Shown here: positions 53,892-55,596 of the stretch, piece by piece
Numbering within the stretch: the first letter of the stretch is position 1
Layout: each line of letters begins with the position of its first letter
DNA from: Rhodothermales bacterium
GTDB lineage: Bacteria; Bacteroidota; Rhodothermia; Rhodothermales; UBA10348
Direction of reading: 5' to 3'
DNA length: 64,000 nucleotides
Assembly: GCA_028284865.1 (NCBI GenBank)
Contig: JANQQV010000027.1
Location: 1-64,000, forward strand
Notes under the pieces: model-generated
Databases searched by the model: none
Seen by the model: only the letters and a program-made list of their open reading frames with translations
Told to the model about the DNA's origin: nothing
Program-made: the position numbers and the translations under genes

Positions 53892-53954
53892 GAATGTCCG
53901 TTATTGACATTCTCGGCTAAACCACCGTTTCTTTGCATAGCCGTTATTGCAAAG
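53892..53954 (+). repeat. Twin inverted repeats with shared CGTTATT loop upstream of a recombinase-like gene
   Basis: The first repeat is GAATGTC-CGTTATT-GACATTC (53892-53912, perfect 7-bp arms). The second is CTTTGCA (53931-53937) and TGCAAAG (53948-53954), whose interval again contains CCGTTATT. The CCGTTATTG copies start 43 bp apart (53898 and 53941), about four helical turns. They end about 100 bp before the recombinase-like ATG at 54053. Confidence 0.6.
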
Positions 53955-54052: not shown

Positions 54053-55018
54053 ATGGCCGAATCGACCGCTCCTTCGACCGTTCAGGTCGAAGATCCTGAT
54101 GCAGGTATTGCTCTTCCCTTGAGCGAATTCCAGGCCCTCGTCAAGGAATTCCTCGAAGAGTATCTCAAAGACAAGAGCAAAGAGACCGTGGGAACGTATC
54201 GCCGTTCCCTCAATGAATTTGAGCGATGGTTCGTTCGCGGGAAGGGCGCCTGTCGCTTTCGAACGTCTGATATCGAAGCGTACAAGACGTATTTGATGGA
54301 GGAGAAGGGCCTGCACCAGGTCTCCGTTTCCACCTACCTCACAGCTGTTCGGCGCTTGTGTCAGTTCATGACAGACTCTGGACTGCTGGCAGAGAACCCG
54401 GCCAAGTCCGTGAAAGGGAATCGGCGACCGGCAACCCATTCGCGCCAGTTCCTCACCGATGACGACATCAAGCAGCTACTCAAGGCGGTCGACGACTTGG
54501 GAGACTCTTCTGAGGAAATTGCCAAGCGAGACCGCGCGATCGTCCACGCCATGCTTTTTGCTGGCCTAAGCGAGATTGAGATCGTTCGCTCAAACGTCCA
54601 GGACTTGGAGCAGACCTTGATGGGGTGGTATCTGCGCATTCAAGGCAAAGGAAGAACCGTCAAGGATCAGCAGGTGCCCATCGATCCGCCCGTGATGGAT
54701 GCCGTTCGTCTCTATCTGGATACGCGGCACCGTATTCGCCCGGAAGATCCGCTGTTCGTTTCCCATGGACATCGAAGTGAGGGCAAGCGACTCAACACCC
54801 GTTCGGTACGCAGCCGGATCAACCATCATCTGGAACGGGCCGGGATCAAGCGCGAGGGGATTACCCCGCACAGCCTGACACACACGGCTGCACTGATCTG
54901 GCTGAACGACGGCTTGAGCGTTGAGACCGTGAAGCAGCGCATGCGCCACGGCACCATCGACACCACCATGATCTATTTTCGTCAACAAGGACGATTGACA
55001 GGAGAGGACGACTCATGA
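54053..55018 (+). CDS. Tyrosine-recombinase-fold protein lacking both catalytic arginines
   Basis: A 321-residue protein with the XerC/D plan: an N-terminal SAM-like core-binding domain (LVKEFLEEYLKDKSKETVG to DSGLLAENPAKSVK) and a C-terminal catalytic-fold domain. Catalytic positions read: Arg I replaced by Ser173 (AGLSEIEI for xGLRxSEL), the beta-hairpin lysine kept (Lys199 in IQGKGRTVK), the HxLRH box changed to HSLTH (His273, Thr276, His277), then His299 in MRHGTIDTT, and the nucleophile position Tyr308. Loss of both arginines should abolish or strongly impair normal strand exchange. It may be a DNA-binding relic, a partner of an active Xer protein, or a non-canonical family. The stop overlaps the next ATG (ATGA). 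Confidence 0.85.
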   Translation: MAESTAPSTVQVEDPDAGIALPLSEFQALVKEFLEEYLKDKSKETVGTYRRSLNEFERWFVRGKGACRFRTSDIEAYKTYLMEEKGLHQVSVSTYLTAVRRLCQFMTDSGLLAENPAKSVKGNRRPATHSRQFLTDDDIKQLLKAVDDLGDSSEEIAKRDRAIVHAMLFAGLSEIEIVRSNVQDLEQTLMGWYLRIQGKGRTVKDQQVPIDPPVMDAVRLYLDTRHRIRPEDPLFVSHGHRSEGKRLNTRSVRSRINHHLERAGIKREGITPHSLTHTAALIWLNDGLSVETVKQRMRHGTIDTTMIYFRQQGRLTGEDDS

Positions 55019-55596
55019 CCGCAATGACTCCCGCCGCAACGACTCCCGTTTCAACCCGGACCACGGAAGTGCTTCGGCAAGCCGAATTCAATCCGGATGT
55101 GCGTAAGTATTGGCTCCTGGGTGGAACGTTTTCTCTGCTTGTCACCATCATCGGAATTCCGCTCTTGCCGTTTTGGTGGCTGCTCGGACTCTGGGTGACC
55201 GGCCGCTATCTCGATCGGATGGAGTGTACACTGACACGCCGCAATCTGATTGTTCGCAAGGGACTCCTCGTTCGTGTTGAAAAAACGATTCCTCTTGACA
55301 AAATCACGGATCTGGGGATGATCCAGGGTCCATTGATGCGTGCTTTTGACGTCCACGCCCTTTCGATTGAGACGGCTGGTTCGACGTCGCAAGGTGCCCT
55401 AGTGAAACTCCACGGCATCAAGGATGTCGAGACCTTTCGGGATACAGTGTTGGAGCAGCGCGACCGGATGCTTGAACATGCCTCGGATGGCTCCTCGACA
55501 TCGACTCCGACTCAGCCAGCGACAGACCAATCCTCATCAGAGGTCGTCACGTTGCTCCGCGAAATCCGGGACGAGTTGCGCAATCGACCTGCGTAG
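55015..55596 (+). CDS. PH-domain membrane protein, YdbS-like, coupled to the recombinase-like gene
   Basis: A 193-residue protein. Residues about 38-62 (YWLLGGTFSLLVTIIGIPLL, FWWLLGLWVTGRYL) form two membrane helices. One bPH2 module follows (MECTLTRRNLIVRKGLLVRVE, IPLDKITDLGMIQGPLMRAFD, ALSIETAGSTSQ), then a Ser/Thr-rich linker and a short amphipathic C-terminal helix (VVTLLREIRDELRN). It resembles the YdbS-like protein at 12515 but lacks a YdbT partner. The ATG sits in the four-base overlap with the recombinase-like gene, so the two are co-translated. Function unknown. Confidence 0.85.
   Translation: MTAMTPAATTPVSTRTTEVLRQAEFNPDVRKYWLLGGTFSLLVTIIGIPLLPFWWLLGLWVTGRYLDRMECTLTRRNLIVRKGLLVRVEKTIPLDKITDLGMIQGPLMRAFDVHALSIETAGSTSQGALVKLHGIKDVETFRDTVLEQRDRMLEHASDGSSTSTPTQPATDQSSSEVVTLLREIRDELRNRPA

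Follow-up and report, generated by a model that had tools for sequence, protein, structure and literature searches.

The window, by which we mean the whole stretch of 64,000 nucleotides from a Rhodothermales bacterium that was analyzed, carries an intact open reading frame of 321 amino acids with an ATG start and a TGA stop (54053-55018, plus strand). Its product, to which we refer as pseudo-Xer, shows the core-binding SAM-like domain and the Phage_integrase catalytic fold (Pfam, E 1e-20 for Phage_integrase) of active Xer proteins and tyrosine recombinases. The features discussed below are the following:

53892..53912, plus strand: upstream site 1, a putative operator, GAATGTCCGTTATTGACATTC, which contains CCGTTATTG (53898-53906) and a TTGACA -35-like hexamer; the 9-mer CCGTTATTG lies upstream in 65 of 85 distinct orthologues.
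53941..53952, plus strand: upstream site 2, CCGTTATTGCAA, an exact 12-mer match to the terminus-array consensus of relatives.
54053..55018, plus strand: the pseudo-Xer gene, coding for a tyrosine recombinase predicted to be catalytically dead; 321 aa, intact frame, Phage_integrase and SAM-like domains, orthologues in nearly all genomes of the order.
54569..54571, plus strand: codon of Ser173 in the column of the first catalytic arginine (ArgI), by alignment to XerD; Ser, Ala, Gly or Thr in 86 of 86 orthologues of the order.
54647..54649, plus strand: codon of Lys199, the beta-hairpin lysine, kept; Lys in 86 of 86.
54869..54883, plus strand: HSLTH box with His273, Thr276 (column of the second arginine, ArgII) and His277; Thr at 276 in 86 of 86 orthologues of the order.
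54947..54949, plus strand: codon of His299 (HisIII/Trp position), kept; His in 84 of 86.
54974..54976, plus strand: codon of Tyr308 at the nucleophile position, kept here; Ser, His or Pro in 10 of 86 relatives.

The initial annotation of this locus proposed that both catalytic arginines had been replaced, and the alignment to E. coli XerD bore this out: ArgI (of GLR-SEL) corresponds to Ser173 and ArgII (of HxLRH) to Thr276, and the catalytic set R-K-H-R-[H/W]-Y reads S-K-H-T-H-Y in pseudo-Xer. Lys199, His273, His277, His299 and Tyr308 are retained under the same residue numbering. Both arginine columns were free of gaps and no neighboring arginine was shifted into them, which answers the concern that other arginines might occupy the active site. 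The pair is central to the chemistry, since Cre R173K yielded no detectable products and Flp R191K was practically inactive in recombination (PMC4499138). A structure model, which had been recommended as a check, was built with AlphaFold on orthologues (mean pLDDT 84) and matched XerA, XerH, Cre and IntI with a Foldseek probability of 1.0; by sequence comparison, the closest proteins of known structure include XerD, XerA and XerH. The XerC, XerA and XerD family models match the protein far below their equivalog cut-offs (NCBIfam, 127 versus 335 bits for XerC and 116 versus 330 bits for XerD). Residues 17-280 also match chain 14 of PDB entry 9i5v (401 aa, labelled ribosome-associated inhibitor RaiA), so that part of this chain may be tyrosine-recombinase-like.

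Orthologues at E 1e-100 or better (about 55-88% identity) were found in 54 of 60 relatives, along with three divergent copies of family f15. Neither arginine is present in any of the 86 distinct orthologues of the order (50-100% identity, 15 families): the ArgI column holds Ser in 78 and otherwise Ala, Gly or Thr, and the ArgII column is always Thr, so that the replacement, which might have been private to this copy, is fixed across the order. Lys199, Glu176 and His273 are invariant in these sequences, and a set of basic residues outside the two columns is nearly so (R51, K78, R100, R125, R131, R159, R225, R241, R246, R250, R253 and R255), as would be expected of a protein still gripping DNA. 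Most close pairs have a dN/dS ratio of 0.02-0.09; the values are 0.12-0.14 among f15 members and 0.32 in the distant f12 pair. The fixed arginine loss and the purifying selection rule out a decayed allele. They leave scarcely any credence for a decayed or strain-specific pseudogene or for an active recombinase in which other residues do the chemistry, even though most of the order still has Lys, His and Tyr: for the former, the loss is seen in 86 of 86 sequences with dN/dS mostly below 0.1, and for the latter, f10, f12 and other lineages have exchanged the nucleophilic Tyr while otherwise keeping the protein, and no gap brings another Arg into the ArgI or ArgII column. The altered chemistry that had been among the suggestions is thus unlikely, while the arginine loss, the purifying selection and further losses of Tyr and His elsewhere give strong support to the broader proposal that the intact protein has been repurposed and no longer serves to cleave DNA.

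In Rhodothermales sucB lies upstream of the gene, and a PorV-like gene and secA lie downstream in many members. No mobile context was found around pseudo-Xer, which has conserved chromosomal neighbors instead and is a vertically inherited core gene order-wide. In the window, a gene for a PH-domain-like membrane protein (55015-55596) overlaps its stop by 4 nt; this neighbor was seen in the same genus only. At two loci, L006 and L007, the region before the gene contains long near-palindromic insertions (TTACAGTATTACCATA ... TATGGTAATACTGTAA) that look like a miniature mobile element.

Homologues with 35-47% identity occur in Chloroherpetonaceae/Thermochlorobacteriaceae, Ignavibacteriota, Kryptoniota and KatS3mg041-like bacteria. 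In a tree of 70 rows, a quick tree with some long branches, 63 proteins of the pseudo-Xer family fell on one side of a supported branch, apart from the active Xers (SH-aLRT 95). The clade thereby extends to Chlorobiota, Ignavibacteriota and Kryptoniota, and the active-site residues that were lost differ among them. ArgI is Ser in most of the wider family; the Ignavibacteria kept ArgII and lost HisI and HisIII, and several of them have leuS downstream of the homologue; within the order, Tyr became Ser in f10 and f12, and f15 is without most active-site residues. As different residues were lost in different lineages, we argue that catalysis is not under selection. Active sites vary among the Thermochlorobacteria, where one Chloroherpetonaceae protein (L164:6001-6861), nested in the otherwise dead clade, has the full R-K-H-R-H-H-Y set, either a retained ancestor or a reversion. 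Family f15 (L058-L060, L205, L206, L210, L212 and L213) occupies the same chromosomal position in most members and lost the promoter word described below together with most active-site residues; its degenerate protein may have another binding target.

The initial annotation also mentioned upstream repeats, and these are real: upstream of the gene CCGTTATTG occurs twice, at 53898-53906 and 53941-53949, against an expectation of 0.23 copies for the entire window, and in loci of the same genus the second copy follows 43-44 bp after the first. It is the most widespread 9-mer within 250 nt upstream of the gene, found in 65 of 85 distinct orthologues, in sense orientation only with 0 antisense, compared with an average of 0.24 for shuffled 9-mers; about a quarter of the orthologues of the order are without the exact word. 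It often overlaps a TTGACA-like -35 and persists despite a different upstream gene, e.g., a dusB-like gene in L039, and several Ignavibacteriota have TTTCTGTTATTG at the corresponding place. Such an order-wide word in the gene's own promoter suggests autoregulation.

In complete relatives CCGTTATTG also forms an array that flips its orientation at dif, beside the intact Xer gene, with the sites pointing to dif on both arms. Across nine genomes, 97 of the 98 sites lying no more than 300 kb from the intact Xer have this polarity (p 3e-28), and site density is enriched near the terminus with p values of 7e-4 to 2e-9 per genome. Six complete relatives have 12-27 copies per genome, concentrated within 5-50 kb of dif. 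The flip lies between 4457015 and 4468146 in G036 (Xer at 4465963-4466913), between 3470123 and 3482193 in G032 (Xer at 3477964-3478872) and between 3134920 and 3140339 in G056 (Xer at 3135737-3136663), and likewise beside the intact Xer in G034, G042, G028, G048, G037 and G038; in G043, which has a different Xer type, it still surrounds that Xer. GC skew switches at the flip in G036 and G032, and the regions in G126 and G042 agree. Beyond the order, 7 of 7 sites in G126 fit a single flip. In fork traps the sites point to dif on both arms (PMC6549158), and this geometry, with non-palindromic sites around dif, was found in families f3, f7, f9, f11, f12 and f13 and partly in f4 and f16; f12, with Ser in place of Tyr, still has the array. 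The sole non-conforming site, in G028, belongs to a pair spaced exactly like one found on the second replicon of G042. Both are +/- pairs with an identical spacing of 160 bp, at G042:C2:114569/114729 (a replicon that is probably a plasmid) and at G028:C1:1678543/1678703 near the terminus, and the exception may lie within a plasmid integrated at the terminus.

When 11,699 9-mers were ranked by polarity over 520 kb of terminus DNA drawn from four genera, CCGTTATTG came first, with 38 forward copies and 0 reverse where 0.5 are expected, a 76-fold excess over the Markov expectation; this rules out GC-skew composition as the source of the polarity. One-mismatch versions of CCGTTATTGCAA were divided 10:0 and three-mismatch versions 64:61. 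Relative to genes, 17 sites are in the same orientation, 10 are opposite and 11 are intergenic; the sites follow the chromosome instead, and as 10 of the 27 intragenic sites oppose their gene and yet obey the chromosome, a transcription or gene-orientation bias is excluded as well.

A KOPS-like word, GGGNAGGG, is separately polar toward dif (99:32; L261-L277, L289-L298) and is the probable FtsK-orienting sequence of these bacteria, 57 of 60 relatives of which, including 44 of 44 of high quality, have the FtsK gamma domain. This separate word and the presence of FtsK gamma, and the few copies of CCGTTATTG concentrated near dif rather than chromosome-wide, rule out that CCGTTATTG is itself KOPS. 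A related explanation is that pseudo-Xer on its polar word organizes or segregates the terminus in a MatP- or KOPS-like manner, by orienting or loading FtsK or by holding sister termini together. The polar, dif-pointing sites beside an active Xer, the dif that adjoins this Xer, the FtsK gamma domain in all high-quality relatives and the sites at the candidate oriC described below, which fit ori-ter coordination, are consistent with it; against it stand the separate G-rich KOPS-like word, the small number of sites gathered at the terminus instead of being spread over the chromosome, and the form of the sites. matS sites are palindromic and not polar, unlike the asymmetric and strictly polar 12-mer found here. 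We regard such an organizer as unlikely, and place a fork trap ahead of it because the sites are few, lie within tens of kb of dif and coexist with a separate KOPS-like word.

Just upstream of several intact Xer genes there are dif-like 11-6-11 palindromes, e.g., ATGTATGATAA TACTAG TTATCGTACAT. In the L069 family, loci L222, L224, L225, L227, L229 and L070 have the palindrome directly upstream of the single intact Xer. A dif just upstream of a lone Xer is the usual layout where one recombinase acts alone, as with XerS and XerH (PMC5357621), which suggests a single-Xer/dif module in these genomes; XerD above the curated cut-off was found in 0 of 60 genomes, with FtsK gamma near-universal. Comparing whole intervals by 28-mers revealed no shared dif, and dif was found only directly upstream of intact Xer genes. 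These Xers belong to different families in different genomes, and the polarity of the word is kept beside either kind. CCGTTATTG is similar to one half of the dif-like palindromes (TTATC[GA].A; TTATTGCAA versus TTATCGTAC), a resemblance that was noticed after the fact and is no more than suggestive, but would fit a tyrosine recombinase as the binder; a word that looks like one recombinase half-site would explain the polarity of the sites. The same resemblance, together with the retained fold and most non-arginine active-site residues, could be taken to indicate an impaired partner that stabilizes or regulates the active Xer at dif, as the dead half of a heterotetramer. We deem this very unlikely, given that a near-perfect palindromic dif beside one Xer gene suits a single-recombinase system, that the dif-like palindromes contain no full CCGTTATTG site and that pseudo-Xer and the intact Xer differ in neighbors and locations. 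The suggestion of a partner for an active Xer was therefore not supported as far as recombination is concerned, the intact Xers being of varied families and beside their own palindromic dif.

Three copies of CCGTTATTG (+, -, -) flank a DnaA-box-like sequence at a candidate oriC in the genome of the window (C8:302412-302520, L259) and in G036 and G032 (L278, L279), and converge on the DnaA boxes. A near-copy, CCGTTATGCAA, lies to the left of these sites in G036 and G032, and a similar one is present in the genome of the window. In G032 the candidate is opposite the terminus and GC skew flips there; at the triple site of G036 no skew flip was seen in the expected direction (5 kb are masked there). 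At a third locus, a conserved pair of CCGTTATTG copies precedes a small terminator-ended transcript, in the genome of the window at C16:153139-153223 (153139/153215; L260), in G036 at C1:2778250-2778312 (L280) and in G032 at C1:193706-193769. No Rfam family was found over this pair or over the oriC locus, and the transcript is possibly a small RNA controlled by pseudo-Xer.

The transcript bears on the explanation that pseudo-Xer is an ordinary transcription regulator, an autorepressor with a small regulon, and that the terminus array belongs to FtsK or to the intact Xer. The conserved site pair there, the overlap of the promoter word with a TTGACA-like -35 and the retention of the word in family f1, where the array is small, would all suit such a protein. 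What makes this explanation improbable is that an identical 9-12-mer is found at promoter, oriC and terminus. In addition, the intact Xers come from more than one family and adjoin a dif whose half-site is different, while pseudo-Xer is near-universal, and CCGTTATTG was not found upstream of the intact Xer genes that were checked. In f15, moreover, the degenerate protein coincides with the loss of the promoter word, which was not found upstream of the copies checked, and with little or no enrichment of the terminus-type word in the genomes. Of the three roles offered in the initial annotation, a DNA-binding regulator came closest, as the order-wide word lies in the gene's own promoter and the same word recurs at oriC and terminus; the chromosomal role had not been foreseen.

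In f1, the family of the window, the terminal array is small, with 2+2 sites around the Xer of G015 and 2 in G008, and G004, of the same genus as the window, has no genome-wide excess of the 9-mer. The genome of the window consists of 28 contigs, and its Xer falls at the edge of one of them; the 160 kb next to this Xer contain four CCGTTAT[TG] words that share a single polarity. Pseudo-Xer is still about 67-88% identical in f1 and the promoter and oriC copies remain, hinting that another role (oriC, regulation) may dominate in this family.

Putting these data together, we lean toward a fork barrier as the explanation. From sequence comparisons we propose that a domesticated Xer-type recombinase, unable to cut, would clamp DNA as a C-shaped monomer on an asymmetric, half-site-like element, 5'-CCGTTATTG(CAA)-3', and thereby act as a one-way barrier at the terminus. 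That pseudo-Xer is the binder is suggested by co-occurrence: the promoter word is order-wide, and where the protein is degenerate, in f15, this word is missing and terminus words show little or no enrichment. With less certainty, the bound clamp would be one-directional, letting forks into the terminus and not out, as in Tus-Ter or RTP-ter; the number of sites, their clustering and the site in the protein's own promoter match the descriptions of fork traps (PMC6549158, PMC10331603). The level of pseudo-Xer would be set by the sites in its promoter, and the copies flanking the DnaA boxes at the candidate oriC may add a role in initiation. Several observations weigh against this barrier model: the oriC sites converge on the DnaA boxes and, if barriers, would oppose outgoing forks; the Lys, His and usually Tyr that are kept would be superfluous in a pure roadblock; the terminal array has shrunk considerably in f1; and a share of the orthologues, about one in four, does not have the exact upstream 9-mer.

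The chromosomal fork traps described so far are only Tus-Ter and RTP-ter, which are unrelated and confined to four narrow clades (PMC6549158), and a search of the open-access literature returned no description of the pseudo-Xer family or of the CCGTTATTG word. We raise tentatively, as a possibility that we would not yet call probable, that pseudo-Xer represents a third, independently evolved fork-trap family, ancient in Rhodothermota/Chlorobiota/Ignavibacteriota, which arose from an inactivated dimer recombinase and also acts at oriC. If true, fork traps evolved a third time, with a deep, phylum-scale candidate derived from a dead Xer, and a single autoregulated protein labels the chromosome both where replication starts and where it ends. 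The enzyme that resolves dimers at dif would have become a structural mark of that region, and the loss of its active site would have gone to different lengths in different lineages. This would account for a core gene to which annotation pipelines would give an XerC/XerD-like label, and would make the purpose of fork traps testable outside Enterobacterales and Bacillus.

Pseudo-Xer can be compared with several known systems. TnsF of the Tn7-like Tn6022 is likewise a tyrosine recombinase that has lost catalysis and serves to target specific DNA sequences (PMC10293859), but it is transposon-borne and has zinc fingers, whereas pseudo-Xer is a vertically inherited two-domain protein of 321 aa without a zinc-finger extension. 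The KOPS, SRS and AIMS octamers of FtsK or SpoIIIE share the polarity toward dif; they are G- or A-rich and chromosome-wide, and a GGGNAGGG-like set is separate here. XerC, XerD, XerA and XerH resemble pseudo-Xer in fold, domain order, length, half-site-like element and tree relationship, and differ from it in that its ArgI and ArgII columns are fixed as Ser/Thr and its sites are single and polar. With RTP-ter of Bacillus it shares polar terminus sites, which in RTP-ter serve a fork trap, but RTP binds as dimers on paired half-sites (PMC10331603), in contrast to the single half-site-like element and the Xer fold seen here. A Pfam scan of pseudo-Xer returned only integrase families, with no homology to Tus (PF05472) or RTP (PF02334). 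From Tus-Ter of Enterobacterales, Aeromonadales and Pseudoalteromonas it is set apart by this unrelated protein and another word, by the copies that also flank DnaA boxes at oriC and by fork arrest being predicted here; yet the two are alike in their few asymmetric sites clustered around dif, pointing to it on both arms and flipping at the GC-skew switch (PMC6549158, PMC10331603), and in the site within the protein's own promoter, as for tus (PMC10331603), here in 65 of 85 orthologues.
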